Shown here in pieces: positions 92 to 61,041 of a stretch of DNA of 64,000 nt (position 1 is its first letter; each line of letters begins with the position of its first letter). This stretch comes from Aromatoleum diolicum (GTDB lineage Bacteria; Pseudomonadota; Gammaproteobacteria; Burkholderiales; Rhodocyclaceae). A program made the position numbers and the translations under genes. Under the pieces are notes generated by a model. That model searched no databases, was not told the origin of the DNA, and saw nothing but the letters and a program-made list of their open reading frames with translations. The DNA lies in the NCBI RefSeq assembly GCF_012910955.1, contig NZ_WTVQ01000020.1:1-64000 (forward strand), read 5' to 3'.

Positions 92-107
92 TGGCACGCG
101 GTTTGCT
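92..107 (+). promoter_or_regulatory. Sigma-54 promoter P1
   Basis: TGGCACGCGGTTTGCT matches the sigma-54 (RpoN) consensus TGGCACG-N4-TTGCW, with the GG and GC elements 10 nt apart. A very AT-rich stretch (50-90) lies just upstream, where IHF could bend DNA towards an upstream activator. It would drive the secreted 131-residue protein that starts at 239. A perfect 6-1-6 palindrome, CGGGATTATCCCG (118-130), follows near the expected transcript start. Confidence 0.8.
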
Positions 108-238: not shown

Positions 239-634
239 ATGACCATCCGTCTTCGTCACATTGCAGCACTCGCATTCGTTCCCTTGTCGCTCGCCGCAGG
301 TTCGGCCAGTGCTGCGCTCGGAGACTATTCGGGCATGAAGGTATGCAGCACCGAGTTCGCGCAAGTGTACTGGGAGATCCAAAACGCCACATACACCTCA
401 GCGAAAAACGCGGCGTGGAACAAGAGCGCTCTGGTCGTAAAACTCGACTCGGCGGAAAGCAAAGTGGCTGGCGGCAAGTTCGGCGAGGCGGTGGACTACC
501 TTCAACAAATTTCGGCCAAGGCCACGGAGTGGGCCGACTTCACGCCGAAGCCGAAGCTCGAAAGCGCCGATGGGATCAATACCAGCGTTTCGGCCGCGAT
601 CGGTTGCGTGACGGTTAATACGCCAGCGATCTAA
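239..634 (+). CDS. Small secreted protein of unknown function
   Basis: A 131-residue protein with a clear Sec signal peptide: the positive start MTIRLR, a hydrophobic core, and likely cleavage after the SASA motif near residue 25. The mature part is about 106 residues, mostly polar and probably helical in the middle, with two cysteines (C36 and C123) that could form one disulfide. I recognise no family. The ATG follows AGAGGTG. It has its own sigma-54 promoter and palindrome, matching the arrangement before the giant oxidase gene downstream, so the two are probably co-induced. A role as an accessory or binding protein for the oxidase system is inference only. Confidence 0.75.
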   Translation: MTIRLRHIAALAFVPLSLAAGSASAALGDYSGMKVCSTEFAQVYWEIQNATYTSAKNAAWNKSALVVKLDSAESKVAGGKFGEAVDYLQQISAKATEWADFTPKPKLESADGINTSVSAAIGCVTVNTPAI

Positions 635-810: not shown

Positions 811-1199
811 TGCGTCAACGTCCCCCTCCGTCGCGCATCGCACGGCGTCCTGCAGATCCCTGTCTCGCGCCCGCACGCTTCGATCGGGCCCGCATCGAGT
901 GGGGAATTTCCCCCTGTCCTGGGGATTCTCCCCCCGATGTGGCCCCGCATCCCCGCGGCCGCGCCCGAGTCGCGGATGTTGCGTCGCGGCACGCCCTTTT
1001 GTCTCCGCATGTTTCAACCGGCCACGTGCGATTTGCATGGGGGGCGCAGCCACGCTGCGCGCCGGTTCGTCCAGGACTGCCTGTCTGTGGGGGATTGGGG
1101 AATTTTCCCCACCCGCATTGGGGGGATACAGCTGGGGAAAATTCCCCGGTCGCATCTGTGAGATTTTGTAAAGCATTGATAAATAGTGAAATTATGTAA
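811..1199. promoter_or_regulatory. Regulatory region with four GGGGA/TCCCC palindromes
   Basis: No credible gene lies here. Four palindromes of one design are visible: GGGGAATTTCCCC (901-913), GGGGATTCTCCCC (921-933), GGGGAATTTTCCCC (1097-1110) and GGGGAAAATTCCCC (1134-1147). The distal pair is centred 20 nt apart and the proximal pair 37 nt apart. The last ends 52 nt before the -24 element of P2, and an AT-rich stretch (1160-1199) lies between. This is the layout of an enhancer for an NtrC-family activator. The binding protein is unknown. Confidence 0.65.
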
Positions 1200-1215
1200 T
1201 GGCACGCAGGTTGCG
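1200..1215 (+). promoter_or_regulatory. Sigma-54 promoter P2 of the multicopper oxidase operon
   Basis: TGGCACGCAGGTTGCG matches TGGCACG-N4-TTGC with correct GG-N10-GC spacing. It is nearly identical to P1 at 92 through the -24 element. It lies 125 nt before the chosen oxidase start, which rules out the ATG at 1199 as the translation start. An AATGTCCC motif follows (1231-1238), as it does after P1 (109-116). Confidence 0.85.
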
Positions 1216-1339: not shown

Positions 1340-4300
1340 ATGAAATACCTGTACCCGATAGGGCGGGCACCAGCACACGACGGCCGTCCAGGCCGCCGGC
1401 TGCGTCTGGCCAGCCTGCTCATGGCGGCCGGTGCCACGTTGTTTGCGGGCGTCCAAGTCGAGGCGGCACCGCCGAGCGGCGGCGGCGGCACGACGACGAC
1501 CGGCGCGATCGCGTGCTCGCGCACGCTGGTTGCCAACGTGGTGGCGATCGACCAGCCGCTGATGTTCAACCGTCTCGGCGCGCAGAACGTCAACGGCATG
1601 ATGTTTGCGCTTGAAGACGACGTGGTCTACCACGATGACGCCACCAACAAGGACACCCCGCTGACACTGGGCGGCGCGGCGACGCCGGGCAAGGTCCAGC
1701 TGCGCGCCGACAAGCGCCCGCGTCCGCTGGTGCTGCGCATCGCGGCGGGCGAATGCCTGACTGTCAATCTGAAGAACCTGCTTACCGCGACGGCCAACCC
1801 GCGCAACGCGACGCCGCCCGAGATGCATATCGACGACCAGGTCGCAGACCGCAACGTCGGTTTCCTCGTGCAGGGCCTGCAGGCGGTCAATTCGATCGCC
1901 GACATCTCCGACAACACCGGCAAGAACCCCAGCGCACTGGTGGCCCCGGGCGGTAGCCGGACCTACACGCTGTACGGCGAGCGCGAAGGCGCTTTTGCCG
2001 TGCATAGCTACGGTGCCACGTTCGGCGCCGACGGCACCGCCGGCAACGTCGCCAACGGCCTGTTCGGCCAGGTGGTGGTGCTGCCCAAGGGCGGCCGCGC
2101 CTACCGCAACGCCGTGACCGAAGAAGAAATGCGGCTCGCGACCATCGGTCGCACGGCCGCCGGCCAGCCGATCGTCAACTACGCCGCGGTGTACCCGGCG
2201 ACCGAACCGTGGAAGACCGAAGGCAAGAGCGGCGCGCCGATCCTGTCGATGGTCAATGGCACGCGCATCGTGCATAGCGATGGCGACGCGGTGGTGCTCG
2301 GGCCGAACGCCAATGGCAGCTTCCCGGCAACGACCTACCCGCTCGAAAGCATGGGCAAACGCAACCCGCCCTACCCGAACCGCCTCGAACCGTTCCGCGA
2401 CTTCGCGTCGGTCTGGCACGACGAGGTCGCGACGGCGCAGGCCTTCCCGGGTTTCTACAACGACCCGGTGTTCGGCTACGTGCTGCAGGCCACCCGCGAC
2501 GCGTTCATGATCAACTACGGTTCCGGCGGCATCGGTTCCGAGATCATCGCCAACCGCCTCGGCGTCGGCCCGATGCACGACTGCCTGTCCTGCGCGTACG
2601 AGGAGTTCTTCCTCACCGCCTACGTCGTCGGCGATGCGGCCCAGTTGGTCGACATCCCCGCCAACGTCGGCCTCGAAGCGCTGAAGCCGGGCCAAGTGCC
2701 GCCGGCCGGCACGACGGGCATCAAGGCGACCAAGCCGCTGTACCCGGCCGACCCGGCGAACGTGCATCACAGCTACATCGGCGACTTCGTCAAGATGCGC
2801 AACACGCACGTGGGCCAGGAACAGCACGTGTTCCACCTGCACAACCATCAGTGGCTGTTCAACCCCAACGACGACAACTCCAATTATCTCGACGCGCAAG
2901 GCATCGGACCCGGGTCCAGCTACACGTACGAGATGGTGAATGGCGGCTCCGGCAACCGCAACCGCTCGCCGGGCGACGCCATCTACCACTGCCACTTCTA
3001 CCCGCACTTCGCGCAGGGCATGTGGTACATGTGGCGCATCCACGACACCTTCGAGGAAGGCACCAAGCTCGCGGTCTCGGGGAATGGCTACCATGCCGCG
3101 CCTTTCGCGTTGCGTGACGGTTCGCCCGCTGCGGGTGCCCGTGCGCTGCCGGACGGCGAACTGGTGGTCGGTGCGCCGATTCCCGCGATCGTGCCGCTGC
3201 CGGGCAAGGCGATGCCGCCGATGCCGGGCAAGGCGAGTGTCGTGGCCAAGGTGATGGATAACAACGTGGTTGCCGGATCGAAGGTGCTGGTCGATCGGAG
3301 TGCCGCCAACAAGAACGCCGATGGCACGCTGAAGAATCCGGGCTATCCGTTCTTTGTCGCCGGGATCGAATCGACGATGGGTCAGCGTCCGCCGACCCCG
3401 CCGCTCGACATGCTGACGCCCGAACAGGCGCAGGCGCTGCGCGGCAGCGGCAATGCGCTGTGGGCCGGGCTGGAGCCGGCACAGGCGGGTGGCTGGGACG
3501 GCGGTCTGCCGCGGCATGCGCTGGAAGGCATCCTGGCGGGCGGTTCCGCTGCAGTGACGACGAGCCCGGTGGACTTCCTGAAGCACCTTACCGCCGCGAA
3601 GCCGGTGTACTTCCCCGAGGAAGGCACGGACGTCGAGCAGGCGGCAATGGCGTTCCACTCGAAGACCTCGCACGCGAGCTGGTCGGTGCTGCCCAACGGC
3701 ACCTCCGTCACGGCGGCGAACTTCCGCACCAACGGTGCGAAGCCTTCGGTCGCGGCGCCGTTCGCCGAACCCTGCGTGGATGACACGCAGAAACAGCTGA
3801 CCAGCACCGCCGGAGCGGGCACCTGGAACAGCGGTTCGTCGATGACCGCGATGTGGACCGGCAAGGCCTCGCCGTTCAATGCGACCACGCCGCGCGTCTA
3901 CAAGGGCGCCAACATCCAGTTCGACGCGGTGCTCAACAAGGCTGGCTACCACTTCCCGCAACAGCGCATCATCGCCCTGTGGGAAGACGTCATGCCGGTG
4001 ATCGACAAGCTGCAGCCGCCCGAGCCGTTGGTGATGCGCATGAACACCTTCGACTGCACGATGTACCACCACACCAACCTGGTGCCCGAGTTCTACGAGC
4101 TCGACGACTACCAGGTGCGCACGCCGACCGACATCATCGGCCAGCACATTCACCTGCCCAAGTGGGATCTTTCGACCACCGACGGTGCGGCGAACGGCTG
4201 GAACTATGAAGACGGCACGCTGGCGCCGGGAGCGGTGGTCGAACGCATCCATGCGATCCGCCACTTCAACCATTGCACCGAACCGACCGACCCGCGCGAC

Positions 4301-7126
4301 GGGACCGGTGTATGCCCGGTGCCCAAGGCTCACCCCTATTTCGGACAGTTCAACCGTCCGGACTGGATGGGCGCCCGCACCACCCAGCAGCGCTGGTTTG
4401 CCGACCCCTTGCTGAACCAGTACGACATCGATCGTGGTCTGGGCAACATCTTCACGCATGACCACTACGGCCCCTCGACGCACCAGCAGGTCGGGCTGTA
4501 CGCGACGGTACTGACGCAGCCGGCGGGCTCGACCTGGTACCACGGCGAGACCGGCACCCCGTTGTACACCCGTGCAGACGGCGGCCCGACCTCGTGGCAG
4601 GCAGTCATCAACAGCGGCGACTTCGACGGCGACAAGGTCGACGACAGCTACCGCGAGTTCTACCTCGAGTTCACCGACTTCCAGCATGCGTACGAAGCCG
4701 GTGTGTATGTAGGTGCAGGCCCCGACGGCATCCCTGATGCGACGGCCTACCCGACCAGCACGGAGAGCTTCCGTTACGCCATCAACCCGCCCGCCAAGAA
4801 GACCACGCTGCCGATCTTCCCGGATATGCAGCGCATCGTGGCCGGTGGCGAGAAGGCCGGTTGCCCGGTACGTCCGTGCCCGCAGGCGATCTCGGCAGAT
4901 GATCCGGGGATGTTCGTGGTGAATTACCGCAACGAACCGGTGGCGCTGCGCATCTACGATCCGGCCAAGACGGGTCCCGACGGCAAGCCCGGCATGCAGG
5001 CGGACGGGCTCGGCGGCGACCTTGCCTATGCGCTGCAAACCCGCACCGACCGCAAGATCCCGGCGTTCAACCTGGCGCCGAGCGCGATCACCCAGGCAAC
5101 CGGCCCGACCGGTGGTGTCACGAAGTTCCCGCCGCACATCAACAAGGCGGGCGACGTGGCGGGCGACCCCTTCACGCCGATGCTGCGCACCTATGCGGGC
5201 GATATCACCCGCATCCGCGTGCAGGCCGGCGGGCAGGAAGAAGCCCACAGCGTCAGCATCCACGGCGTCAAGTGGCTGCAGGGTGGTTCGTCCTTCGGTG
5301 CAGCAGGCAACTCGGGCTGGCGCAATGGCCAGATGGTTGGCATCTCCGAGCAGTTCAGCTTCGGCGTTCCGGTCGCGATGTATGCGGACCCGGCACGTAC
5401 CCAGGCCGACTACCTGTATGCGATCAATTCGTCGATCGAGGGCTACTGGAACGGCGCCTGGGGGGTGATGCGCAATTACTCCGAACTGCGTGACGACCTG
5501 TTCCCGGTGCCGAACAACCCGAAACCGGTGGGCGTCGCCAACGCGGCGGACTTCAACGGCATCTGCCCGAAGAACTACGTCGATCCGAAGCTCGGCTCGC
5601 TGCCGGTCACTCAGCGCAATTTCAACGTAGTGGTCGCGCTCGCCAACGACATCCTGCCCAACCCGTACAACCTGACGATCGGTATGCCGGGTAGCGACGG
5701 TCAGCATGTCGGCGGTCCGCTCAAGGCCAACGGTGGCACCCTGGTGTACAACCAGCGCGCAACCAGCATCCCGGCCGCGACGGTAATCGACGAAGTCACC
5801 GGCGAAACGATGACGATCGGTGGTCATGCGGGTCCGCTGCACGACCCGACCGCGGCGATGTACGTGCGTGCCGAGGATCTCGATCCGACTACCGGCAAGC
5901 TCAAGGCCGGCGTGCCGGTGGAGCCGATCGTGCTGCGGGCCGCGGCTGGCGATTGCGTCAATGTCACGCTGGAGAACCGTCTGCCGGCCGTGATGCCTGA
6001 CCTGCCGTCGCCCAACCTGATGTCGCCGGTCGTGATTCGTGACCGCTTCAGCACCGTGGGCACCACCAGCTTCAACAACAACCTGATGCGTCCGTCAAGC
6101 CATGCTGGCTTCCACACCCAGCTGGTGACCTTCGACGTGACCAAGTCTGACGGCACCAACGTCGGCATCAACCCGGTGCAGACCGTCGCACCGCGGGCGG
6201 GCACGACCGGCAGCTACCCGACGACGTCCTATCAATACTACGTAGGAGACCTGGCACGCGCGTATTCCGCGCAGACATCCACACTGAAGATGAGCACCGA
6301 TACCGTCACGGCGGTCGGGGTCGAGTTCGGCGGCGTCAACATCATGCCGGCGGACAAGATCAAGCAGACGCAGAAGGGTCTGAACGGAGCGCTCGTTGCA
6401 CTGCCTCCGGGTTCCACCTGGGTCGAGGACGCGAACATGCGTGCCGCGGCCACGGTGACCAAGATCACGAAGCCGGAACTGCCGACCTACCGCGATTTCG
6501 CGCTGCAATGGGCGAAGGGTCTCAACATGCGCTGGGCTGACGGTCAACCGGTGGAGAACATCGCCGCCGAAGGTCCGATGGTGCATGAGGATCCGGAGGA
6601 CAACTCGGCGATGGCGGTGAACTACAAGGTCGAGCCGCTGTGGTATCGCTTCGCGAAGGCGCCGGATGCGCCGTTCGGTCACGCCAACGGTGCGGGTTTC
6701 GCCGCTGTGCCGAACGCCAACATGGCATACAGCAACGCGCTGGTCGGAGGCGACCCGGTGACCCCGGTGCTGACGGTCAATCGCGGTATGCCGTTCCGCA
6801 TCCACGTCGTGCAGTCCTCGGGCGGCAGCCGTGGCGGCACCTTCGGCCTCCATGGCCACGTGTGGCAGCGTGATCCGTACCGTTCGCACAACAGCGACGC
6901 ATCGGGTTACCCGGCGCGCAAGTTCGGTGTGGGTTCGACACGCATCCTGTTCAACCCGCTCGGCATGTTCATGGGCGGTCAGGAAAGCATCCTGCCGGCC
7001 AGCCACTTCACCTTCAACATGGCCAGCGCGGGTGGCGGCAACGGCGTCGTCGGCGACTACCTGTACCGCGACTTCGAATCGCTGGGCAACCTCGGCGGTC
7101 GCTGGGGCATCGTGCGGGTGCAGTAA
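1340..7126 (+). CDS. Giant MnxG-like multicopper oxidase
   Basis: A protein of about 1,928 residues, several times longer than laccases but similar in size to MnxG-type Mn(II) oxidases of pseudomonads. An export signal spans residues 1-35; GRRLRLAS just before the hydrophobic stretch could make it Tat-type. Copper motifs are visible: HVFHLHNHQW near residue 497, the HCH-x3-H-x4-M cluster YHCHFYPHFAQGM near 549, HIHLPKW near 934, THDHYGPSTHQQ near 1039 and HGHVWQRDP near 1837. Several cupredoxin domains are therefore implied. The ATG at 1340 follows GGGAGAG; an upstream in-frame ATG lies inside the promoter. The family oxidises Mn(II), but other metals or organics are possible. It heads an operon of copper chaperones and a cytochrome. 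Confidence 0.85.
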   Translation: MKYLYPIGRAPAHDGRPGRRLRLASLLMAAGATLFAGVQVEAAPPSGGGGTTTTGAIACSRTLVANVVAIDQPLMFNRLGAQNVNGMMFALEDDVVYHDDATNKDTPLTLGGAATPGKVQLRADKRPRPLVLRIAAGECLTVNLKNLLTATANPRNATPPEMHIDDQVADRNVGFLVQGLQAVNSIADISDNTGKNPSALVAPGGSRTYTLYGEREGAFAVHSYGATFGADGTAGNVANGLFGQVVVLPKGGRAYRNAVTEEEMRLATIGRTAAGQPIVNYAAVYPATEPWKTEGKSGAPILSMVNGTRIVHSDGDAVVLGPNANGSFPATTYPLESMGKRNPPYPNRLEPFRDFASVWHDEVATAQAFPGFYNDPVFGYVLQATRDAFMINYGSGGIGSEIIANRLGVGPMHDCLSCAYEEFFLTAYVVGDAAQLVDIPANVGLEALKPGQVPPAGTTGIKATKPLYPADPANVHHSYIGDFVKMRNTHVGQEQHVFHLHNHQWLFNPNDDNSNYLDAQGIGPGSSYTYEMVNGGSGNRNRSPGDAIYHCHFYPHFAQGMWYMWRIHDTFEEGTKLAVSGNGYHAAPFALRDGSPAAGARALPDGELVVGAPIPAIVPLPGKAMPPMPGKASVVAKVMDNNVVAGSKVLVDRSAANKNADGTLKNPGYPFFVAGIESTMGQRPPTPPLDMLTPEQAQALRGSGNALWAGLEPAQAGGWDGGLPRHALEGILAGGSAAVTTSPVDFLKHLTAAKPVYFPEEGTDVEQAAMAFHSKTSHASWSVLPNGTSVTAANFRTNGAKPSVAAPFAEPCVDDTQKQLTSTAGAGTWNSGSSMTAMWTGKASPFNATTPRVYKGANIQFDAVLNKAGYHFPQQRIIALWEDVMPVIDKLQPPEPLVMRMNTFDCTMYHHTNLVPEFYELDDYQVRTPTDIIGQHIHLPKWDLSTTDGAANGWNYEDGTLAPGAVVERIHAIRHFNHCTEPTDPRDGTGVCPVPKAHPYFGQFNRPDWMGARTTQQRWFADPLLNQYDIDRGLGNIFTHDHYGPSTHQQVGLYATVLTQPAGSTWYHGETGTPLYTRADGGPTSWQAVINSGDFDGDKVDDSYREFYLEFTDFQHAYEAGVYVGAGPDGIPDATAYPTSTESFRYAINPPAKKTTLPIFPDMQRIVAGGEKAGCPVRPCPQAISADDPGMFVVNYRNEPVALRIYDPAKTGPDGKPGMQADGLGGDLAYALQTRTDRKIPAFNLAPSAITQATGPTGGVTKFPPHINKAGDVAGDPFTPMLRTYAGDITRIRVQAGGQEEAHSVSIHGVKWLQGGSSFGAAGNSGWRNGQMVGISEQFSFGVPVAMYADPARTQADYLYAINSSIEGYWNGAWGVMRNYSELRDDLFPVPNNPKPVGVANAADFNGICPKNYVDPKLGSLPVTQRNFNVVVALANDILPNPYNLTIGMPGSDGQHVGGPLKANGGTLVYNQRATSIPAATVIDEVTGETMTIGGHAGPLHDPTAAMYVRAEDLDPTTGKLKAGVPVEPIVLRAAAGDCVNVTLENRLPAVMPDLPSPNLMSPVVIRDRFSTVGTTSFNNNLMRPSSHAGFHTQLVTFDVTKSDGTNVGINPVQTVAPRAGTTGSYPTTSYQYYVGDLARAYSAQTSTLKMSTDTVTAVGVEFGGVNIMPADKIKQTQKGLNGALVALPPGSTWVEDANMRAAATVTKITKPELPTYRDFALQWAKGLNMRWADGQPVENIAAEGPMVHEDPEDNSAMAVNYKVEPLWYRFAKAPDAPFGHANGAGFAAVPNANMAYSNALVGGDPVTPVLTVNRGMPFRIHVVQSSGGSRGGTFGLHGHVWQRDPYRSHNSDASGYPARKFGVGSTRILFNPLGMFMGGQESILPASHFTFNMASAGGGNGVVGDYLYRDFESLGNLGGRWGIVRVQ

Positions 7127-7139
7127 GCAGTTGCAGCAC

Positions 7140-7166
7140 GGGGCGCGGCGCGAACCGCCGCGCCCC
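7140..7166 (+). other. Intercistronic GC hairpin after the oxidase gene
   Basis: A perfect 11-bp stem (GGGGCGCGGCG / CGCCGCGCCCC) with loop CGAAC, 14 nt after the oxidase stop. No U-run follows, so it may cap the oxidase mRNA or dampen read-through into the next gene. The remaining sequence to 7366 shows no gene. Confidence 0.45.
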
Positions 7167-7366
7167 GCAAGCAGGAGTTTCAAGAGCAGTGGCAACACGC
7201 AGTACCGCAAGTGCTTTTGATTTGGGGGGGGTCATCATGGCAGAGGAGACTCCCTCACTTTTTCCGGATGAGTAAGTCGCTGCTCAGGGCAGTGGCCTCC
7301 ATCCGATCGAATTCGCAGTCCGGGTCGGCTCCACCAGGTTCCGACCCTGCAATTGGGGAGACAGAC

Positions 7367-9313
7367 GTGCGCAAACTTCGCTTCGCAACAATCTCGGTGC
7401 TTTTGTCGTGTGCATTGTCGGGCAGCCTCGCCGCCGCGCCGGCGCCGGCCTCCGCCCTGCCGGGCGCCAAGGACGCGGCCCCCGCAGCCAGCGGTCGCCT
7501 GGTGCGCGACGGGGTGGCGATCGATTTCGAAGCGCGCCCGACGGCCGGCGGTAGCGAGCTGGTCGAAGGCGGGCTCGCCGACATCCGTTTCCGCATCAGC
7601 GACGCCAAGAGCGGCAAGGCGCTGAGCGGCCTCGCGCCGGGCGCGTGGCTGGATCTCGCGCAGGTCATCTCCTCCCCGAAAGGCGAGCAGAAGGAATGCA
7701 AGGACAAGATCGCGCTCTACCTCAAGGGCGTGGTCGGCGTGCGTCCGATGGTCGACCTCAACAGCTATTACCTGCTGGTGCTCAACAAGGACGCCAGCAT
7801 CACCGTGGTGGACCCGCTGATGTCGGTGGCGGGCACCACCAGCACGCTGACGCGCATCATGTTGAAGCGGCCGCCGGTCGATTGGGTCAAGAGCGCCGAC
7901 GGCAAGCATATTTTCGTGTCGATGCCGATCGCCGATCAGGTGGCGGTCGTCGATGCGGCGAATTTCAAGGTCGTGCGCGACGTCGATGCCGGCGACGAGC
8001 CGGTGCGCGTCACCGTGCAGCCGGACGGCCGCTACCTGTGGGTCGGCAACAACTCGCGCGACCCCAACAAGAGCGGCGTCACGGTAATCGACGCGAAAAC
8101 TTTCAAACCGGTGAAAAGCTTCGCCACCGGCAAGGGCCATCACGAGATCGCCTTCAGCGAGGATTCGCGCCACGCCTTCGTGACCAACCGCGACGCGGGC
8201 ACCGTGAGCGTCTTCGACGTCGCGAAGATGCAGAAGCTGCAGGACGTGGCGACCGGCCCGCGGCCGATTTCGGTGGCGCTGTCGGCGCTGTCCAAGGCCA
8301 TCTACGTCGCCGACGGCGAGGCCGGCACGATCAGCGTGATCGACGCGCACAGCCTCAAGCCGCGCAAGCTGATCCAGGCCAAGCGCGGCCTCGGGCCGGT
8401 GCGCTTTACCCTCGACGGGCGCTACGCCTTCGCGCTGAACACCCTGGAGAACACCGCCACGGTGGTGGATGCGGGCAGCGACGAGGTGGTGCATGACATC
8501 AAGGTCGCCGCCGAACCCTACCAGGTCACCTTCACGAAAACCTTCGCCTACGTGCGCGGGCTCGCGACGGAGCACGTGACGATGGTGAACCTCGGCTCGC
8601 TCGGCAAGGGCCGCGAACCGACGCTGCAGAGCTTCGCCGCCGGCCCGGAGGCGCCCAAGCTCGCCGGCGACCTGCCGCTCGCCACCAGCCTCGCCGCGCG
8701 CAACGACGAGTCCTCGGTGTTCGTCGTCAATCCGGTGAACAACACCACCTACTTCTATATGGAGGGCATGAACGCGCCGATGGCCGGTTACCTCAACCGC
8801 GGCCACACCGCGCGCGCCGTGACGGTGGTCGACCGGGCGATGCGCCAGGCCGAACCGGGCGTGTTCACGACGCAGGTGATGTTGCCCGCGGCCGGGCGCT
8901 TCGACGTCGCCTTCATGCTCGACCGCCCGCAAGTGCTGCACTGCTTCAGCGCCGAGGTGAAACCCGGCCAGGCCACCGACGCCAAGCTCGCGATCCCGCG
9001 CCTGGAATTCCTGCCGGCGCCGGTGACGGTGCAGGCGCCGTCGAAGGCCGCGGTGCGCTTCCGCCTGGTGCAGGGCCGCAAGGACGAACCGCGGACCGGC
9101 GTCACCGACCTGCGTGTGCGCTATTTCCTCGCGCAGGGCGGACGTCGGCTCGACGCGCCGGTGCGCGAAGTCGGCGACGGGGTGTATGAGGCGCAAATCG
9201 ACGTCACCGATACCGGTGCGTACTACGTCCATGTCGATTCCGCCGCGCTCAAGGAAGACCGCGACCGGCCCTACCTGACGCTGCGCGCCGTACCTGCGGT
9301 CGCACAGAAATGA
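7367..9313 (+). CDS. Secreted YVTN-type beta-propeller protein
   Basis: A 648-residue protein. The chosen GTG start is preceded by GGGGAG and gives a clean signal peptide (VRKLRFATISVLLSCALSG, cleavage near ASA). The middle, roughly residues 130-450, carries repeats such as VVDAANFKVVRDVDAGDEP, IDAKTFKPVKSFATG and VFDVAKMQKLQDVATGP, typical of YVTN/lactonase-like propellers. The C-terminal 200 residues look like immunoglobulin-like beta domains. Propellers of this kind often scaffold periplasmic redox enzymes or bind metals and cofactors. Its place directly after the oxidase suggests a partner or assembly factor (inference). An upstream ATG at 7268 is in frame but has a weak ribosome site and would bury the signal peptide. 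Confidence 0.8.
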   Translation: MRKLRFATISVLLSCALSGSLAAAPAPASALPGAKDAAPAASGRLVRDGVAIDFEARPTAGGSELVEGGLADIRFRISDAKSGKALSGLAPGAWLDLAQVISSPKGEQKECKDKIALYLKGVVGVRPMVDLNSYYLLVLNKDASITVVDPLMSVAGTTSTLTRIMLKRPPVDWVKSADGKHIFVSMPIADQVAVVDAANFKVVRDVDAGDEPVRVTVQPDGRYLWVGNNSRDPNKSGVTVIDAKTFKPVKSFATGKGHHEIAFSEDSRHAFVTNRDAGTVSVFDVAKMQKLQDVATGPRPISVALSALSKAIYVADGEAGTISVIDAHSLKPRKLIQAKRGLGPVRFTLDGRYAFALNTLENTATVVDAGSDEVVHDIKVAAEPYQVTFTKTFAYVRGLATEHVTMVNLGSLGKGREPTLQSFAAGPEAPKLAGDLPLATSLAARNDESSVFVVNPVNNTTYFYMEGMNAPMAGYLNRGHTARAVTVVDRAMRQAEPGVFTTQVMLPAAGRFDVAFMLDRPQVLHCFSAEVKPGQATDAKLAIPRLEFLPAPVTVQAPSKAAVRFRLVQGRKDEPRTGVTDLRVRYFLAQGGRRLDAPVREVGDGVYEAQIDVTDTGAYYVHVDSAALKEDRDRPYLTLRAVPAVAQK

Positions 9314-9342
9314 TCGCCCCGGAACATGTCGAGGAGAAGATG

Positions 9343-10125
9343 ATGAACGCCACCCGCAAAACCGTCCTCCAGTCCTGCGTTCTGGCGCTGGCGCTGGCCG
9401 GCGGCCTGACCCAGCCGCATGAGGCGACAGCCCATTCGGAACATGCACAGCGCGCTGTCACCGCTCGCGCCGACCATGCTTCGCATGACGTCAATGCCCA
9501 CGCCGAGCACGCGGTCAAGCCTGAACATGCCGGCCACGCCAGCGCCACCTCCCCTGCGGATCATGCCAACCACGCGAATCATGCAGATCACGCCAAGCAC
9601 GCCGCCGCCGGGAAGAACGCGGAAGGCGTGAATGTGCGTTTCGCCGACGTCGCGCTGCTCGACCAGGACAGCCGCGAACGCCGCCTCAAGTCCGACGTCA
9701 TCGGCGACCGCATCGTCGTGATGGACTTCGTCTACACCAGTTGCACCACGGTGTGCCCGGTGGTCTCCGCGATCATGAGCGAAGTCCAGAGCAAGCTCGG
9801 CGCGCGCGTCGGCCGCGACGTCGCGCTGGTGTCGATGACGGTGGACCCGGTCCGCGACACCCCGGCCCGGCTGCGCGATTACGCGCGCTCGCGCGGCGCA
9901 GGGCCGGGGTGGTCGTGGCTCACCGGCAGCACCACGGCGATCAACGACACCCTCAAGGGGCTCGGCACCTGGACGCCGGACTTCGAGGATCACCCGGTCG
10001 TGATGATGGTCGGCGACGGCCGCAGCGGCCAATGGACACGTTTCTACGGCTTTGCCGATCCCGCCGCGCTGGTGGCCCAGGTCGAATCGCTTACCGCGGC
10101 GCGTGGCGCCACTGCCAAGGAGTAG
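9343..10125 (+). CDS. SCO1/SenC copper chaperone with His-rich linker
   Basis: A 260-residue exported thioredoxin-fold protein. The copper-binding CxxxC is in SCTTVCP near residue 133, and the distal conserved His is in FEDHPVV near residue 220. TVDPVRDTP is typical of SCO1. Between the signal peptide and the SCO domain (residues about 28-85) is an unusual His-rich stretch with many DHA/EHA/NHA units, likely a metal-buffering tail. The ATG at 9343 is chosen for GAGGAG at ideal spacing; ATGs at 9310 and 9340 are also in frame, the first overlapping the upstream stop. SCO proteins deliver copper to oxidases, here presumably to the giant multicopper oxidase. Confidence 0.88.
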   Translation: MNATRKTVLQSCVLALALAGGLTQPHEATAHSEHAQRAVTARADHASHDVNAHAEHAVKPEHAGHASATSPADHANHANHADHAKHAAAGKNAEGVNVRFADVALLDQDSRERRLKSDVIGDRIVVMDFVYTSCTTVCPVVSAIMSEVQSKLGARVGRDVALVSMTVDPVRDTPARLRDYARSRGAGPGWSWLTGSTTAINDTLKGLGTWTPDFEDHPVVMMVGDGRSGQWTRFYGFADPAALVAQVESLTAARGATAKE

Positions 10126-10129
10126 GACC

Positions 10130-10855
10130 ATGAACATTGCACGCTCGATCACCGCCGCTTCGGCTTCCGTTTCCGCTTCTGCATTGACCCTCGCCGTCGC
10201 GCTTGCCCTCGCGCTTCAGGGCGGCGCCGCGTTCGCGCACGGCAAGGATCATCCCGAGGCGGGCGCCGCGGCGGCGTCGCAGCCCTCCGCCACCAAGGCG
10301 GCCCCGGTGGCGCAGCCGGTGTCGGCGGGCACGCGCGATGCGCGCGCCTACTTTTCCGACACCCTGTTGCTGACGCAGGACGGCCGGCAGGTGAAGTTCT
10401 ACAGCGACGTGCTGAAGGACCGCGTCGTGTTGCTGAACGTGGTGTTCACCAATTGCAAGGATGCGTGCCCGCTGATCACGCGCAAGCTCAAGGAAGTGCG
10501 CGCCGCGCTCGGCGAGCCGCTCGCGAGCAAGGTGCATTTCATCTCGATCAGTTCCGATCCCGAAAAGGATTCGCCGCAGGCGCTGAAGGCCTTCGCCGCG
10601 AAGAACGAAGCCGACAATCCGAACTGGACCTTCCTCACCGGCGACAAGGCGAACGTCGATTTCGTGCTCGCACGCCTCGGTCAGCTGGGCGAGAGCCCCG
10701 AAGGGCACTCGACCCTGCTGATTGCCGGTGACGTCGGCGCCAAGCGCTGGAACAAGATCCGCCCGGATGCCGCGCCGGTCGCGATCGCCGAGCGCCTGAA
10801 AATGCTCGCCGATCCGGTCGCAAGCGCCGCGCTGAACGCGGGCGCGGGCAAGTAA
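10130..10855 (+). CDS. Second SCO1/SenC copper chaperone
   Basis: A 241-residue exported protein, 4 nt after the first SCO gene. The signal peptide is long and Ala/Ser-rich, ending near AFAHGKDHPE. The copper motif NCKDACP is at about residue 108, ISSDPEKDSP matches the family, and the distal His is in SPEGHSTLL near residue 198. It lacks the His-rich linker of its neighbour, so the two are diverged paralogues that may have different roles, for example copper delivery and thiol reduction. ATG follows AGGACC, a weak site consistent with translational coupling. Confidence 0.88.
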   Translation: MNIARSITAASASVSASALTLAVALALALQGGAAFAHGKDHPEAGAAAASQPSATKAAPVAQPVSAGTRDARAYFSDTLLLTQDGRQVKFYSDVLKDRVVLLNVVFTNCKDACPLITRKLKEVRAALGEPLASKVHFISISSDPEKDSPQALKAFAAKNEADNPNWTFLTGDKANVDFVLARLGQLGESPEGHSTLLIAGDVGAKRWNKIRPDAAPVAIAERLKMLADPVASAALNAGAGK

Positions 10856-10860
10856 CGATC

Positions 10861-12447
10861 ATGGCGAGCCGCCGCATCTTCCATTGCCTCGGTGTTGCCG
10901 CCGCGCTGACATGCGCCGCGGGCACCGCTGCCGCAATCGAACTGTCGGCCTCGGAGCGTGCCGGCAAGCGGATCTTTCTCGAAGGTCGCAGCGCGACGGG
11001 CAGCAGCATCGCCGCCCGCGTCGGCGCAGGCGACACCGCGATGCCGGGAACGGTGGTGCCGTGCGCGAACTGCCACGGCGCCGACGGGCGCGGCCGCCGC
11101 GAAGGCGGCGTGCGTCCCTCCGACATTACGTGGCGGCGGCTCGCCACCCCCTACGGCCAGCGCCTCGAAAGCGGGCGCGAGCATCCCGCCTACGACGCCG
11201 CCAGCCTCGCGCGCGCCGTCAGCCACGGTGTCGACCCCGCCGGCAACCGGCTCGACCCGGCGATGCCGCGCTTCGTGATGTCGGCGCGCGACCTCGAGGA
11301 TCTCACCGCGTATCTGAAGCGGCTCGAGGACGATCGCGACCCCGGCCTCCTCGAGGACGTGCTGCGCCTCGGCACGCTGCAGCCCGCGAGCGGCCCGCTC
11401 GCCGAACTCGGCGGCACCGTTACCGCGGTGCTGCGCGGCGCGATCGACGCCGTCAATGCCGACGGCGGCATCCACGGCCGGCGTGTCGAACTGATCGTTG
11501 CCGACGCGGGCAGCGACGCCGCGGCGGGTGAGGCGGCGCTGCGTCGCCTGGTCGAGCAGGACAAGGTCTTCGCGGTGCTCGCGCCGCTCGCGCCGGCGCT
11601 CGACGGCAGGCTCGGCGAACTGGCCGACGCCGCGCGCATTCCGCTGGTCGGACCGCTTGCCCAGCTGGCAAGCGGTGGCGGCCGTTTCGTGTTCGACCCC
11701 CTGCCCGGATTGGGCGAACAGCTCGGCGCGCTCGGCGAATACGCCGCGACGACGCTGAAGCTCGGCAATCCGCCCGCCGCGATCGTGCACCCCGACGACC
11801 GCCGTAGCGCCAGCCTCGCGACCGCACTCGCCGAGCGCCTTGGCCGTCGCGGCTGGTCGCAGGTGCGCGCGTATGCCTACGCTCCCGGCGCCTTCGATGC
11901 CGCCGGGGCGGGCACGGCACTGGCCGGGCAGGGGGCGAAGGCCGTGTTCTTCGTCGGCCGCGACGACGATTTCGGCGCCCTCGCGGCGCAGAAATCCGTG
12001 CAGAAGTCTGCGCCGTGGCTGTTCGCCGCGGCGACCCAGGTCGGGCCGGCGGCGCTCAAGCTCGCCCCCGCGCAGGCCGAACGCGTGTTCGTCGCCTACC
12101 CGACGCTGCCGCAGGACTGGTCCCCGCAGGGGGCCGGCTTGCTGCGGGCGATGCGCGAGCGCAGCGGCGTGGGCGAGCGGCACCCGGCTTTCCAGGTCGG
12201 CGCGTACGCCGCGGCGCTGGTGATGATCGAAGGGCTCAAGCGCGCCGGGCGCGACGCGAGCCGCGAAAAACTGGTCGCCGCGCTGGAGAACCTGCACGGC
12301 TTCCAGACCGGGCTGACGCCGGCGATCGGCTTCGGGCCGGGGCAGCGGGTCGGCGCGCCGGGGGCGCACATCGTCGCGGTCGACGCGGCCAAACGCACGT
12401 TCCGTCCGACGGGCCGCTACGTCCGGCTGGACACGACGCAAGAGTGA
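10861..12447 (+). CDS. Cytochrome c fused to periplasmic substrate-binding domain
   Basis: A 528-residue exported protein. After the signal peptide (residues 1-25) comes a class I cytochrome c domain with one haem site CANCH at residues 67-71 and a likely axial Met in MPRFVM near residue 137. From about residue 180 the protein matches the type 1 periplasmic-binding fold (ABC branched-chain amino-acid receptor type), with VLRGAIDAVNADGGIHGR and AYAAALVMIEGLKRAG as family-like stretches. No ABC transporter genes are nearby. Such a fusion suggests a redox partner that docks on or senses a ligand. It starts 5 nt after the second SCO gene. Electron acceptor from the oxidase pathway is inference. 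Confidence 0.82.
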   Translation: MASRRIFHCLGVAAALTCAAGTAAAIELSASERAGKRIFLEGRSATGSSIAARVGAGDTAMPGTVVPCANCHGADGRGRREGGVRPSDITWRRLATPYGQRLESGREHPAYDAASLARAVSHGVDPAGNRLDPAMPRFVMSARDLEDLTAYLKRLEDDRDPGLLEDVLRLGTLQPASGPLAELGGTVTAVLRGAIDAVNADGGIHGRRVELIVADAGSDAAAGEAALRRLVEQDKVFAVLAPLAPALDGRLGELADAARIPLVGPLAQLASGGGRFVFDPLPGLGEQLGALGEYAATTLKLGNPPAAIVHPDDRRSASLATALAERLGRRGWSQVRAYAYAPGAFDAAGAGTALAGQGAKAVFFVGRDDDFGALAAQKSVQKSAPWLFAAATQVGPAALKLAPAQAERVFVAYPTLPQDWSPQGAGLLRAMRERSGVGERHPAFQVGAYAAALVMIEGLKRAGRDASREKLVAALENLHGFQTGLTPAIGFGPGQRVGAPGAHIVAVDAAKRTFRPTGRYVRLDTTQE

Positions 12448-12460
12448 GGGAGGGAGCGCA

Positions 12461-13183
12461 GTGAGAGCGAACCAGGCACAGGGCAGGATCGCCGTGAAGG
12501 CGCGGGAAGGGAGAGAGGGACAGTCGCGTGCGGGCCGACGGTGGCTGCGTCGCGGGGCTGTGTTCGCCCTGTGCCTGGTTGTGGCTCTCAGCCTCGCCGT
12601 ACCGGCGATGGCGCAGGAAGTGGGCGTGGTCGCCCGCGTCAATGGATCGGACATCACCGTTTTCCGGCTGGAACGGCACTTCGAGGATTACCTCAAGCAG
12701 CAGGCGCGCAATGTCGCCGCGATCCGCAATCCGGAAGTCTTCAAGCGTCTCAAGCGCGAGGCCCTCGATCAGCTGATCGACAAGGAACTGCTGTGGCAGG
12801 AGGCGCAGCGCCGCGGCATCGTCGTCGACGACGCGGTGGTGCGCGAGGCGCGCGCCGGGATTGCATCCGGCTTCCGCACCCCCGAGGCGTTTCAGCGGCG
12901 CATGCAGGAGGCCGGCTTCGACGACGCCGCCTACGATGCCTATCTGCGCCGCGAACTCGCCTCCAGTCGGGCATTGAGCGAGCTGATCGGTCCGGTGAAA
13001 GTGTCCGACGAGGACGTGAAGCGCGTGCTCGCGCAGCAGTCGCCGCCCCCCGACATGCCCAAGGCCGCGGTCGAGGCGCAGGTGCGCGAGCAACTGCTCG
13101 CCGGCCGCCGTGCCGAAGCCAGCCGCGCAGCGCTGCAGCGACTGCGCACCGGCGCGCAAATCCAGACCTTGCAGCGGTTCTGA
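12461..13183 (+). CDS. SurA-like periplasmic chaperone without PPIase domain
   Basis: A 240-residue protein with a GTG start behind GAGGGAGGGAG. After a long basic N-tail and signal segment (about residues 28-51, ending AMAQ) it shows the SurA N-terminal chaperone pattern: VGVVARVNGSDIT, then EALDQLIDKELLWQEAQRRG and a C-terminal helix. No parvulin domain is present, and the protein ends about where one would begin. It is the last gene of the oxidase operon and probably helps fold or export an operon product (inference). Confidence 0.75.
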   Translation: MRANQAQGRIAVKAREGREGQSRAGRRWLRRGAVFALCLVVALSLAVPAMAQEVGVVARVNGSDITVFRLERHFEDYLKQQARNVAAIRNPEVFKRLKREALDQLIDKELLWQEAQRRGIVVDDAVVREARAGIASGFRTPEAFQRRMQEAGFDDAAYDAYLRRELASSRALSELIGPVKVSDEDVKRVLAQQSPPPDMPKAAVEAQVREQLLAGRRAEASRAALQRLRTGAQIQTLQRF

Positions 13184-13368: not shown

Positions 13369-13384
13369 TGGCACGAAGCATGCT
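13369..13384 (+). promoter_or_regulatory. Sigma-54-like promoter P3 before the response regulator
   Basis: TGGCACGAAGCATGCT keeps a perfect -24 TGGCACG and the GG-N10-GC spacing, with one mismatch in the -12 TTGCW. It lies 68 nt before the regulator start. An AT-rich block (13310-13345) precedes it, and a GGGGCGCCCC palindrome sits at 13279-13288, but the GGGGAA/TTCCCC sites of P1 and P2 are absent. An overlapping weaker candidate begins at 13384. Confidence 0.6.
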
Positions 13385-13451: not shown

Positions 13452-14003
13452 ATGCCAGCGGCGAAACGAGTGCTGATTGTCGAGGACGAGGAAATCCTCG
13501 CCGGCAATCTCAAAGCTCACCTGGAGCGCGCATCCTGCAATGCGCGGATCGCTGCCGACGGTGCCAGCGCGATCCGCGTTTTTGACGACTTCGCCCCCGA
13601 CGTGCTGGTCCTCGATTACCGCCTGCCGGACATGAACGGCTTCGAGGTGCTCGATGCGATCCGTTGCCGCTGCAGCCTGTGCGAATGCGTACTGATGACC
13701 GGCCACCCGACCAGCGAGGTGTATAGCGGCGCCGCCGAACGTGGCATCCGGCACATCCTGTTCAAGCCGTTCCCGATGCTCGAACTGTCGAGACTGGTGT
13801 GCGCGACCGCGCCGTTCCTGCTCGCCGGTCCGCTGCATGGCGACCTTGCGCCGCACGATACGCACCTGCCGGTGCCGGGGGAACGCCGCCACAACACGCG
13901 GCGCGGTTTCCCGATGCGCCTATTCGACGGGACTTGGTTGTATGCTGATCGTCGTCACCCCGTCGGCATGAGTCCGGACGAAGACAAGAGCGACGGGGAC
14001 TGA
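13452..14003 (+). CDS. Stand-alone response regulator receiver protein
   Basis: A 183-residue protein with one CheY-like receiver domain (about residues 5-120). VLIVEDEE gives the acidic pair, VLVLDYRLPDMNGFEVL contains the phosphoacceptor Asp near residue 53, and the conserved Lys is in LFKPF. The C-terminal 60 residues are low-complexity and show no DNA-binding helix-turn-helix, so output is probably by protein contact. The ATG follows GAAAGGAAC. It has its own sigma-54-like promoter and sits between the oxidase and secretion operons. No partner kinase is adjacent. It cannot itself be the sigma-54 activator, since it has no AAA+ domain. Confidence 0.82.
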   Translation: MPAAKRVLIVEDEEILAGNLKAHLERASCNARIAADGASAIRVFDDFAPDVLVLDYRLPDMNGFEVLDAIRCRCSLCECVLMTGHPTSEVYSGAAERGIRHILFKPFPMLELSRLVCATAPFLLAGPLHGDLAPHDTHLPVPGERRHNTRRGFPMRLFDGTWLYADRRHPVGMSPDEDKSDGD

Positions 14004-14097
14004 AGCGCTGCAAGACTGAAGCAATGAACGATGCGGCGGCCACGTGATCGCCGCGACGCGAAGCCGCTCATGACGAGCGGACTTGAGGGTTCTGCCA

Positions 14098-15819
14098 ATG
14101 GATCACCTTCCTGTCTCTGCCATGTGTGCGACACATGACCAGGCGCCGGCCGCGCGCCTTGACGTGGCCTTGTTGCGTGCTGCGCGCGAGCGCGCCGCGG
14201 TGCAGGGGCGGCGCGTGATCGACGAGCTCGAAGAGCAGGCCGCTCTCGAACCGGGCGAATTCGTCCGCCGTCTCGGCGCGACGCTGCATTACCCGGTGAT
14301 GGACGGCGAACTGCTGTTTGCCAGCGCCCCGGATTTTGCGCGCGTGCCGCTGGCCGAGGCGCTGAAGCACGAGTTCGTGATGGTGCGGCGCCCCGACGAC
14401 CCGGCGGGCGTCGTCGTCGGCGTGTTCTCGGACCCCTTCGATGGCGGGCGCCTCGCGTGGATCGACGAACGCCTCGGCAGTGCGTCGCTCTGTCTGGTGC
14501 ATCCGGCCGACCTCGCCGCCTATCTCGCGCGCCACGAGGAAGATTTCCACGCCGTCGACTCGCTGGCCGCCGGCGCTGACGAAACCGCCGAAGCGGAAGA
14601 CATCGAAACGCTGTCCCTGGCGCGCATCAGCGAGGATTCCAGTGTCGTCGTCAAACTGGTCAATTCGACCCTCTACGACGCCCTCAAGCTGCACGCCAGC
14701 GACATCCACCTCGGCGTCACCGGCACCGGGCTGGTGATCAAGTACCGCATCGACGGCGTGCTCAACACCGCCAGCCGGGTGCATGGCGCCGAAGTCGCCG
14801 AGCAGGTGATCTCGCGCGTCAAGGTGATGGCCGAACTCGACATCGCCGAAAAGCGCGTGCCGCAGGACGGCCGCTTCAAGGTCGCGATCAAGGGCCGCCA
14901 GATCGACTTCCGCGTCTCGATCATGCCCAGCATCTTCGGCGAGGACGCGGTGCTGCGCGTGCTCGACAAGCAGGATCTGGCCGACCAGATCCACGGCGTG
15001 CGCCTCGACGCGCTCGGTTTCGAGGCCTCGGTGATGCGCACCCTGCGCCGCCTCGCCAGCGAACCCTACGGCATGGTGCTGGTGACCGGCCCCACCGGCA
15101 GCGGCAAGACGACGACGCTGTACGCGATGCTCACCGAGATCAACCGCGGCGTGGACAAGATCATCACCATCGAGGATCCGGTCGAATACCAGCTCCCCGG
15201 CGTGCTGCAGATCCCGGTCAACGAGAAAAAGGGCCTCACCTTCGCGCGCGGCCTGCGCTCGATCCTGCGCCACGACCCGGACAAGATCATGGTCGGCGAA
15301 ATCCGCGACCCCGACACCGCGCAGATCGCGGTGCAGTCGGCGCTCACCGGCCACCTGGTGTTCACGACCATCCACGCCAACAACGTGTTCGACGTCATCG
15401 GCCGCTTCGTGCAGATGGAGGTCGACCCCTACAGCTTCGTCTCGGCGCTCAACGGCATCCTCGCGCAGCGCCTGATCCGCCTGTCCTGCCCGGCCTGCGC
15501 CGTCGAAGTCACGCCGGGCGACGACGAACTGCTCGCCTCCGGCCTCAACCCCTCCGACATCAAGGGCTACCGCTTCGTGCACAGCCCCGGCTGCGGCCGC
15601 TGTCGCGGCACCGGCTACAAGGGGCGGACGGCGATCGCGGAATTGCTGCTGCTCGACGACGAATTGCGCCAGACCATCATCGATCGCCAGCCGATCTCGC
15701 GCCTCAAGGAACTGGCGCGGCGGCGTGGCCTGCGCCTGCTGCGCGAATCGGCGCTGGACCTCGTGCGCGAAGGCAAGACCACGCTGGAGGAGATCAACCG
15801 TGTCACTTTTGTCGCGTGA
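14098..15819 (+). CDS. gspE: GspE/PilB-type secretion ATPase
   Basis: A 573-residue assembly ATPase. An N-terminal GspE domain is followed by the motor domain, with Walker A GPTGSGKTTT near residue 330, the Asp box, Walker B IMVGEIRDPDTAQ near 397 and the His box LVFTTIHAN. A zinc-binding module, CPAC with CGRCRGTGYKGR, spans about 463-505. It powers pseudopilus assembly in type II secretion or type IV pili. The ATG at 14098 follows GAGGG at 8 nt. It begins a nine-gene operon whose next gene overlaps by 20 nt. No GspF platform protein is present, so the ATPase must work with one encoded elsewhere. Confidence 0.9.
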   Translation: MDHLPVSAMCATHDQAPAARLDVALLRAARERAAVQGRRVIDELEEQAALEPGEFVRRLGATLHYPVMDGELLFASAPDFARVPLAEALKHEFVMVRRPDDPAGVVVGVFSDPFDGGRLAWIDERLGSASLCLVHPADLAAYLARHEEDFHAVDSLAAGADETAEAEDIETLSLARISEDSSVVVKLVNSTLYDALKLHASDIHLGVTGTGLVIKYRIDGVLNTASRVHGAEVAEQVISRVKVMAELDIAEKRVPQDGRFKVAIKGRQIDFRVSIMPSIFGEDAVLRVLDKQDLADQIHGVRLDALGFEASVMRTLRRLASEPYGMVLVTGPTGSGKTTTLYAMLTEINRGVDKIITIEDPVEYQLPGVLQIPVNEKKGLTFARGLRSILRHDPDKIMVGEIRDPDTAQIAVQSALTGHLVFTTIHANNVFDVIGRFVQMEVDPYSFVSALNGILAQRLIRLSCPACAVEVTPGDDELLASGLNPSDIKGYRFVHSPGCGRCRGTGYKGRTAIAELLLLDDELRQTIIDRQPISRLKELARRRGLRLLRESALDLVREGKTTLEEINRVTFVA

Positions 15820-16612
15820 GCGTTACCTCGCGGTCATCACCCCGACGCGCGTGAGCCTGCTGCGCGGCCGCGGTCGTGGCGCCGTCGATGCGCTCGGCAG
15901 TGTCGCGTGCGCCGGCGACAGCGCGGGCTGGACCGCCGCTGCCGACGCCTTGCAGCGCCTGCTGACCGAATCCGGTGTACATCGCGGCGAACTGGAGGTG
16001 GTGCTGTCGAGCCATTTCGCCCGTTTCCGCCTGGTGGCGTGGAGCGACGCGATCGGCTCGCCAGACGAACTCGAGGCCTACGCGCGCATCGGTTTCGAGG
16101 AGGTGTACGGCCCGGTCGCCGCCGGCTGGGCGCTGCGGGTGTCACCCGAATCTGCCGGGCGGCCGCGTCTGGCCGCCGCGATCGAGCAGGCGCTGCTCGA
16201 CCGTCTGCACGGCCTCGCACAAAGCGCAGGGCTGAACCTGGTGTCCGTGCAGCCGCATCTGATGGCGGCCTACAACCGCCTGTTGCCGCGCCTGCGGCGC
16301 GACGATTTCCTGTTCGCCGTGGCCGAACCCGGCCGCTGCAGCGTGCTGCTGGCGCGCGCCGGGCGCTGGGTCAGTGTGCGTTCGAGTGCCGCCGACGACT
16401 CCGAGGGCGCGGTGGCGGCACTGCTCGAGCGCGAGTGCGAACTCCACGGCCTCGCCGGCGAGGCCATGCCGCCGGTGTATGTGCACGCGCCGGGGCGTCC
16501 GCAGGGGGCCTGGCGGCCGGTGCATGGCGCCGCGCCGCAAGCGCTGGCGATCGGCGCGCCCGCCGCGGCGACGTCCGACCCCTGGCTCGACATGGCACTG
16601 GCGGTGGCCTGA
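15800..16612 (+). CDS. PilM/GspL-like assembly protein
   Basis: A 270-residue protein starting at a GTG (after GGAGGA) inside the end of the ATPase gene. It looks like a divergent actin-like (PilM/MshI/GspL cytoplasmic) domain: a short N-terminal strand set RYLAVITPTRVSLLRG, a central region, and LNLVSVQPHLMAAYNRL, which resembles the family's second subdomain. No transmembrane segment is visible. Position between the ATPase and PilN/PilO-like genes supports the call more than sequence does. Its 3' end overlaps the next start by 1 nt. Confidence 0.65.
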   Translation: MSLLSRERYLAVITPTRVSLLRGRGRGAVDALGSVACAGDSAGWTAAADALQRLLTESGVHRGELEVVLSSHFARFRLVAWSDAIGSPDELEAYARIGFEEVYGPVAAGWALRVSPESAGRPRLAAAIEQALLDRLHGLAQSAGLNLVSVQPHLMAAYNRLLPRLRRDDFLFAVAEPGRCSVLLARAGRWVSVRSSAADDSEGAVAALLERECELHGLAGEAMPPVYVHAPGRPQGAWRPVHGAAPQALAIGAPAAATSDPWLDMALAVA

Positions 16613-61040: not shown

Positions 61041-61041
61041 A

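Follow-up and report, generated by a model that had tools for sequence, protein, structure and literature searches.

Bacterial manganese oxides drive carbon and metal cycling, which gives weight to the questions of how the oxidases that form them are switched on, how they are exported and what purpose they serve. These questions are raised by a 64,000 nt stretch of Aromatoleum diolicum (positions 1 to 64,000 of contig NZ_WTVQ01000020.1, our contig C59; "the window" hereafter), in which six genes on the plus strand at 1340-13183 encode a giant multicopper oxidase, a beta-propeller protein, two SCO proteins, a fusion of cytochrome c with a periplasmic binding protein, and a SurA-like protein. 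What does this oxidase act on, and which neighboring genes belong to it? Judged from sequence, the six genes probably form an MnxG-type Mn(II) oxidase system that is the orthologue of the Pseudomonas putida GB-1 mnxG operon and lies in a larger island encoding its own control and export. The operon itself is of a known kind. The new part is the wider island, with its secretion set, kinase and activator, sigma-54 promoters, palindromes and a small secreted protein, and the points worth following up are the linkage to an exporter and a candidate operator of the regulator MnxR. A broader proposal, for which we consider the chances about even, is that oxidase, copper loading, a type II exporter of its own and a sigma-54 two-component switch constitute one island of Pseudomonadota, inherited and lost largely as a unit and marked by a GGGGAA-N1-2-TTCCCC operator that MnxR would bind about 66 bp before the sigma-54 element. 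If true, the island would define the MnxR regulon, and in Aromatoleum the Mn-oxidizing apparatus would also include secreted four-helix proteins, co-regulated members of one family.

The identity of the oxidase is indicated by its family, its copper motifs and its operon. It scores 3260.6 bits with the NCBIfam model NF041487 (manganese-oxidizing multicopper oxidase MnxG), for which the curated whole-protein cut-off is 3100, while Pfam sees it weakly, below its cut-offs. The best solved relative by sequence is MnxG of the Bacillus Mnx complex (PDB 9bxa, E 1.3e-71), a shorter chain of 1,227 aa that is weakly similar outside the copper motifs. In both proteins HXXHXH and HCH motifs precede the HXH pairs and the ligands align. 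Each of the 12 expected ligands of the type 1 and trinuclear coppers is the same in 86 of 86 sequences, a set made up of six distant homologues from the same order, 79 named loci and the window. Individual residues were assigned to the type 1 or the trinuclear coppers by general knowledge of these enzymes. The predicted fold of residues 60-1100 had a mean pLDDT of 35.7 and was not used, and the case for the copper sites is one of sequence. An earlier sequence-only reading of the locus had named a phylogeny and the alignment of copper-centre residues in a structural model as checks on its proposal of an MnxG-like oxidase. As far as they could be carried out, at the level of sequence, neither refuted it: the protein passes the MnxG equivalog cut-off and groups with Aromatoleum/Azoarcus next to the Pseudomonas clade, and its copper motifs align with those of 9bxa.

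The same reading had listed the six genes and an oxidase of ~1,930 residues; all six are present at that place and on the plus strand, and the oxidase has 1,928 aa when started at 1340. Its longest frame opens at ATG 1199 (1975 aa), a start that was rejected in favor of 1340 because this ATG sits at the edge of the sigma-54 promoter, abutting the element at 1200-1214. The tiny gaps noted downstream of the propeller gene were also found (about 29, 4, 5 and 13 bp with the likeliest starts), whereas mnxG and the propeller gene are about 240 bp apart. Gene for gene, in order and annotation, the window matches the GB-1 operon as given in Table 4 of PMC11409713, namely mnxG, YVTN propeller, SCO1/SenC, SCO1/SenC, substrate-binding/cytochrome c and SurA domain, with gene names also in a figure legend of PMC8218464. 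It differs from GB-1 in its betaproteobacterial host and in the added small secreted proteins. Among the 69 named loci with at least 8.8 kb of downstream sequence, 61 carry propeller, SCO, SCO, cytochrome/binding protein, SurA, receiver and GspE genes in this order behind mnxG, which shows the frames to be real genes. The exceptions are L054, L067, L090, L115, L118, L119, L121 and L124, of which L054, L118 and L124 lack the receiver alone.

Relatives were sought with two peptide patterns in a genome collection described as 84,980 species, and the best 80 of 431 were kept (79 loci); nearly all are Pseudomonas, and the locus counts are not independent events. Among these 80, the nearest are four from Aromatoleum/Azoarcus (82-83% identity), followed by two loci of one gammaproteobacterial metagenome-assembled genome (MAG; 71-72%), and the remainder are Pseudomonas, one of them labelled Pantoea (63-67%). 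A tree of 31 rows, built without named McoA, MoxA or MofA sequences, places the window with Aromatoleum/Azoarcus, then the MAG, then Pseudomonas, with the long branches G148 and G387 outside. Where the sequence-only reading called MnxG-type enzymes best known from Pseudomonas, a betaproteobacterial mnxG is already on record in Leptothrix cholodnii SP-6 (PMC13386937). In the genus of the window, 10 of 17 genomes carry the family, eight of them above the cut-off; the gene of G410 consists of two partial pieces. In a sample of the host's order, 12 of 399 genomes gave a match, four of them short (16-22 bits), and one, the host's own genome, scored above the cut-off; the 12 genomes of the same family but other genera in this sample gave no MnxG match. 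In G408, mnxG is split into two frames (C1:232005-237658), either as a pseudogene or through a sequencing error. Two mnxG loci each occur in the gammaproteobacterial MAG (L051, L052) and in Pseudomonas sp. GM21 (L066, L120), and at L051 and L120 the other operon genes gave no match in the available surrounding sequence.

The control of the operon points to sigma-54. The window has three sigma-54-type promoters: one precedes the gene for the small secreted protein, one the mnxG operon and one the operon of receiver and secretion genes. The second was found by sequence match at 1200, and a site of this kind precedes mnxG in 73 of the 79 named loci; in GB-1, too, the mnxG promoter is predicted to have IHF and sigma-54 sites (PMC11930936). 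The seven genus loci with a valid start (L162-L168) all have the site, each with a palindrome about 66 bp upstream; G408 (L169) was left out, as the start used falls inside its split gene. The pattern TGGCAY-N6-TGC precedes the receiver gene in 61 of 62 loci, against an expectation of 0.028 per stretch given the background of these loci, and stands at 13369 in the window. The promoter of the small protein lies at the same distance from its gene in the window, L049, L050, G406 and G411.

Upstream of the mnxG promoter lies a palindrome at 1134-1147. Its start is 66 bp away from the sigma-54 element, as in Pseudomonas, and it is a candidate MnxR operator on the strength of its position and pattern. 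In 73 distinct upstream segments (72 named loci and the window), a symmetric GGGG-N4-6-CCCC motif starts 55-80 bp before the element in 60, where shuffled sequences gave a mean of 0.62 and a maximum of 4, and the stricter GGGGA-N3-4-TCCCC occurs at this spacing in 43 (shuffle mean 0.045). L055, whose upstream sequence is cut, was left out of this set. In a related comparison of these promoters, L051, L052, L064, L067, L085 and L090 were dropped, having no single sigma-54 site in the range searched (L064 and L085 have short upstream sequence). In 43 of 74 cases the stretch from palindrome to promoter contains an IHF-like site, allowing one mismatch; mononucleotide shuffles gave a mean of 7.2. 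The site in the window matches the IHF consensus perfectly. Within two mismatches of GGGGAAWWTTCCCC the window has matches at 27-41, 900-914, 1097 and 1134 only (0.34 expected). The whole 5.1-Mb genome contains four strict GGGGAA-N1-2-TTCCCC sites, and all four lie at the island (C59:901, 1097 and 1134, and C107:15265, the last about 165 bp before the kinase gene); of six looser GGGGA-N4-TCCCC sites, two are at mnxG, one at the C107 end and three elsewhere. Assigned by contig position, 15 of 26 strict sites in the ten mnxG-bearing genus genomes are at the island, and the seven mnxG-less genomes have five, one of them at the degraded island of G404 described below. The palindrome followed by TGGCA has 17 matches in 13 genomes, eight of which are mnxG promoters by their letters, against six for the backward control; in the host's own genome the single match is that of mnxG, beside one control match. 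No published definition of the MnxR binding site was found among the matches listed in our literature search.

The probable regulator genes lie on another contig. L049, L050 and G406, a genome in one contig, share a gene order: histidine kinase, NtrC-type activator, GspF and GspG (reverse), transglycosylase-like gene, small secreted proteins, mnxG; the lytic-transglycosylase-like gene was named from its sequence, without a family search. In A. diolicum the first five of these genes end contig C107 (15441-20917 of 21049), and the small secreted protein gene starts C59, and the two contigs probably adjoin. The activator has receiver, sigma-54 and Fis-type HTH domains, is linked to mnxG, and occurs at 77% identity or more in all ten mnxG-bearing genus genomes and in one of the seven others (G404). 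By its domains and linkage it is the natural candidate for MnxR, and the kinase is MnxS-like. Another activator, at the start of contig C112 (L150), was rejected, having 39% identity where the C107 copy has 85%. Published work gives GB-1 MnxR as a predicted sigma-54-dependent regulator, and for Pseudomonas MS-1 it describes an rpoN::Tn5 insertion that abolishes Mn oxidation, which complementation restores. In GB-1 the regulator genes form a separate operon; in Aromatoleum they stand beside the mnxG operon.

Several observations weigh against the island and its operator as drawn here. The kinase/activator pair is beside mnxG in just 7 of the 63 named loci with enough upstream sequence, and the ends of C107 and C59 show no exact overlap. 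Of the strict palindromes in mnxG-bearing genus genomes, 11 of 26 were not assigned to the island. In G408 and G414 it has no strict site, and the distant homologues G148 and G387 show neither promoter element before mnxG. It is possible, though we hold it distinctly less probable than an MnxR operator, that the palindromes are a repeat element or are bound by another regulator such as FleQ. An effect of FleQ on Mn oxidation is described for GB-1 (PMC11409713), and the receiver/secretion promoter has no GGGGAA-N1-2-TTCCCC palindrome. The backward control CCCCTT-N1-2-AAGGGG is a high-copy pattern in several genus genomes, with up to 123 copies, but has no copy in the host's own genome, where the four strict sites are all at the island, one of them before the kinase-activator pair; moreover, different genera agree in where the palindrome stands ahead of the sigma-54 element. 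The genomes in which the backward pattern is repeated, with 17 to 123 copies, are G406, G413, G412, G403, G408, G414, G409 and G410.

Beyond the operon follow a receiver protein, GspE, a PilN/GspL-like protein, GspM, a secretin, two pseudopilins and conserved proteins without Pfam matches, and such a type II secretion gene set adjoins the mnxG operon in both Aromatoleum-type and Pseudomonas loci. The idea of a self-contained metal-oxidizing system therefore needs widening: the enzyme and its accessory genes are real, but the unit exceeds six genes, being accompanied by regulator and secretion genes. The linkage, the co-occurrence in the genus, the joint decay in G404 and the adjacency in G148 and G387 point to an exporter dedicated to MnxG, the cargo being deduced from these patterns. 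Island GspE (at least 83% identity) is present in 10 of 10 mnxG-bearing and 0 of 7 mnxG-less genus genomes, a split with a chance of about 5e-5 if the genomes were independent, though they are not. G404, assembled as one contig and lacking mnxG, retains a scar of the island (C1:2934156-2943488, L206), with kinase, activator, GspG, receiver and two pseudopilins at or near full length and fragments of GspF, the transglycosylase-like gene, cytochrome/binding protein, SurA and secretin; neither mnxG nor GspE gave a match in the scar, and they were lost together. G148 and G387 keep the same secretion set beside mnxG in other arrangements. A 2003 study cited in PMC4509608 reportedly found, judging from its title, that a novel Gsp-related pathway is needed to secrete the Mn-oxidizing factor of P. 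putida GB-1. This Xcm type II-related pathway may be the same as the cluster beside mnxG. That the cluster serves some other cargo or pili, its place beside mnxG being historical, is suggested by the incomplete sets, since GspF and GspG lie upstream on the opposite strand in only 43 of the 63 loci with at least 4.5 kb of upstream sequence. We consider this improbable, as the co-occurrence holds despite a second GspE, 59-61% related, in 15 of 17 genus genomes, the set decayed along with mnxG in G404, it remained next to mnxG in the rearranged G148 and G387, and a Gsp-related pathway is on record for the GB-1 factor.

Mn(II) as the substrate is inferred by orthology to Pseudomonas MnxG, and it counts against this step that the orthology spans 63-67% identity to the Pseudomonas loci. 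The copper ligands and the fold class do not fix a substrate, and the host is a denitrifier of aromatic-degrader kin with no report as a Mn oxidizer among the matches listed; nor did the listed matches of our literature searches contain a published report of mnxG or Mn oxidation in Aromatoleum. The protein might thus be an MnxG homologue by descent whose main substrate is Fe(II), Cu(I) or an organic compound and which oxidizes Mn incidentally, if at all. This is unlikely in our view, because the protein passes the MnxG equivalog cut-off and has kept the full accessory operon of a genetically proven Mn oxidase together with its sigma-54 control. In another betaproteobacterium, Leptothrix discophora SS-1, the mof operon likewise encodes a giant putative Mn oxidase together with a cytochrome c protein and a folding helper, but the helper is mip-type, and the accessible part of PMC8218464 names no propeller/SCO/SCO set beyond a metallochaperone in Rubrivivax A210. 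That our oxidase is of the MofA type is highly improbable, judged by the MnxG model and by gene content: a betaproteobacterial host and a mof operon with folding helper mofB and cytochrome c protein mofC (PMC8218464) speak for it, but the MnxG cut-off is passed, the gene content is that of GB-1, and it differs from the set mofA-mofB (mip-type PPIase)-mofC (cytochrome c).

For the Mn(II) oxidase island, the following course of events is proposed. The kinase and the NtrC-type response regulator on C107 would act as MnxS and MnxR, as their domains and linkage suggest. The activator would bind the GGGGAA-N1-2-TTCCCC palindromes while IHF bends the DNA, and sigma-54 polymerase would then transcribe the small protein gene, the mnxG operon and the receiver/secretion operon. 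MnxG would enter the periplasm, where the SurA-like protein may hold it and the two SCO proteins may help to load copper, roles to which their motifs point. The adjoining type II system would take it to the cell surface, as linkage and co-inheritance suggest. There, electrons would pass from Mn(II) via the type 1 copper to O2 at the trinuclear cluster, for which the ligands are present, yielding Mn(III/IV) oxide. The cytochrome c/binding protein, the propeller and the small secreted proteins would be accessories without an assigned task. This yields a testable list of one candidate Mn-responsive operator, one candidate dedicated exporter and one accessory protein set. In addition, relatives of denitrifiers that degrade aromatic compounds are credited with a putative O2-dependent Mn oxidase, and Mn oxides could attack recalcitrant carbon there.

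The accessory proteins keep their characteristic motifs. Among aligned relatives from the 79 named loci searched, CXXXC of the SCO proteins is retained in 68 of 68, their distal His in 67 of 67 and CXXCH of the cytochrome in 67 of 67. The fusion protein combines one CXXCH cytochrome c domain with a LivK-type periplasmic binding domain (Peripla_BP_6), and the SurA-like protein matches SurA N-terminal domain models alone, the isomerase domain being absent from the family search. Since a multicopper oxidase reduces O2 on its own, an electron path through the cytochrome is not required; of the earlier suggestion of such a path, the cytochrome domain is real, while the path stays a suggestion. Genes for cytochrome c maturation have a published effect on Mn oxidation in Pseudomonas, and it may be conjectured that the cytochrome c/binding protein explains this need. 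Of 98 loci, many of them with little upstream sequence, tblastn showed the small secreted protein at two, L049 and L050; it is also present in G406 and G411, and as a paralogue in the G404 scar. It is modelled as a four-helix bundle (mean pLDDT 78.3) with two Cys invariant among five sequences, and had no match below E 0.8 among PDB folds. A role as counterpart of MnxE/MnxF was unsupported, there being no match to the Bacillus Mnx structure 9bxa and no notable PDB match. The coordinates are given in Table 1.

Table 1. Features of the mnxG island in the window, with the basis of each assignment.
Feature	Position	Strand	Basis
Sigma-54 promoter of small secreted protein gene	92..107	+	TGGCACGCGGTTTGCT, exact match; same distance from homologue in L049, L050, G406, G411
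Small secreted protein of 131 aa, probably a co-regulated accessory; four-helix bundle predicted	239..634	+	alignment, model
Palindrome GGGGAATTTCCCC, candidate activator site	901..913	.	pattern search
Palindrome GGGGAATTTTCCCC, candidate activator site	1097..1110	.	pattern search
Palindrome GGGGAAAATTCCCC, candidate MnxR operator	1134..1147	.	66 bp 5' of sigma-54 element
Sigma-54 promoter of mnxG operon, TGGCACGCAGGTTGC	1200..1214	+	sequence match
mnxG, 1,928-aa multicopper oxidase	1340..7126	+	NCBIfam NF041487 3260.6 bits; 9bxa; copper ligands 86/86
YVTN/lactonase-type beta-propeller protein	7367..9313	+	open frame from 7211, likely start 7367
SCO1/SenC protein 1	9343..10125	+	CXXXC, distal His, His-rich N-terminus; open frame from 9310
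SCO1/SenC protein 2	10130..10855	+	CXXXC, distal His; open frame from 10052
Cytochrome c (CXXCH) fused to Peripla_BP_6	10861..12447	+	domain matches
SurA N-domain protein	12461..13183	+	domain match
Sigma-54-type promoter of receiver/secretion operon	13369..13384	+	same kind of site in 61/62 loci
Stand-alone receiver-domain protein	13452..14003	+	
GspE-type secretion ATPase	14083..15819	+	
Conserved secretion-cluster protein without Pfam match	15725..16612	+	
PilN/GspL-like protein	16606..17151	+	
GspM-like protein	17138..17686	+	
Conserved protein of secretion cluster without Pfam match	17686..18291	+	
Secretin with cohesin-like domain	18288..20582	+	
Pseudopilin, N-methylation motif	20599..21066	+	
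GspG-like pseudopilin	21149..21523	+	
Conserved protein ending secretion cluster, without Pfam match	21527..22114	+	

Some further observations concern the surroundings of the island. A nitrate-reducing host, as the sequence-only reading had it, agrees with a NapA at 60961-63588 that scores above curated cut-offs; on the same contig, the kinase at 57482-59434 is NarX/NarQ-like, yet below its cut-offs. A scan of positions 1-16000 with Rfam gave nothing at gathering scores. An animal haem peroxidase of the MopA kind had no match in the genome, nor in any control genome, which leaves its absence unproven. Beyond the window, a 496-aa open frame at C59:83154-84443 is the one further multicopper oxidase that PF07732 picked out in this genome. 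The propeller protein (7367-9313) resembles the PQQ-dependent catabolism-associated propeller TIGR03866, with 92.8 bits, below the cut-off of 287.3. In the first SCO protein (9343-10125), a long His-rich stretch precedes the domain and is not in the aligned part of the relatives.

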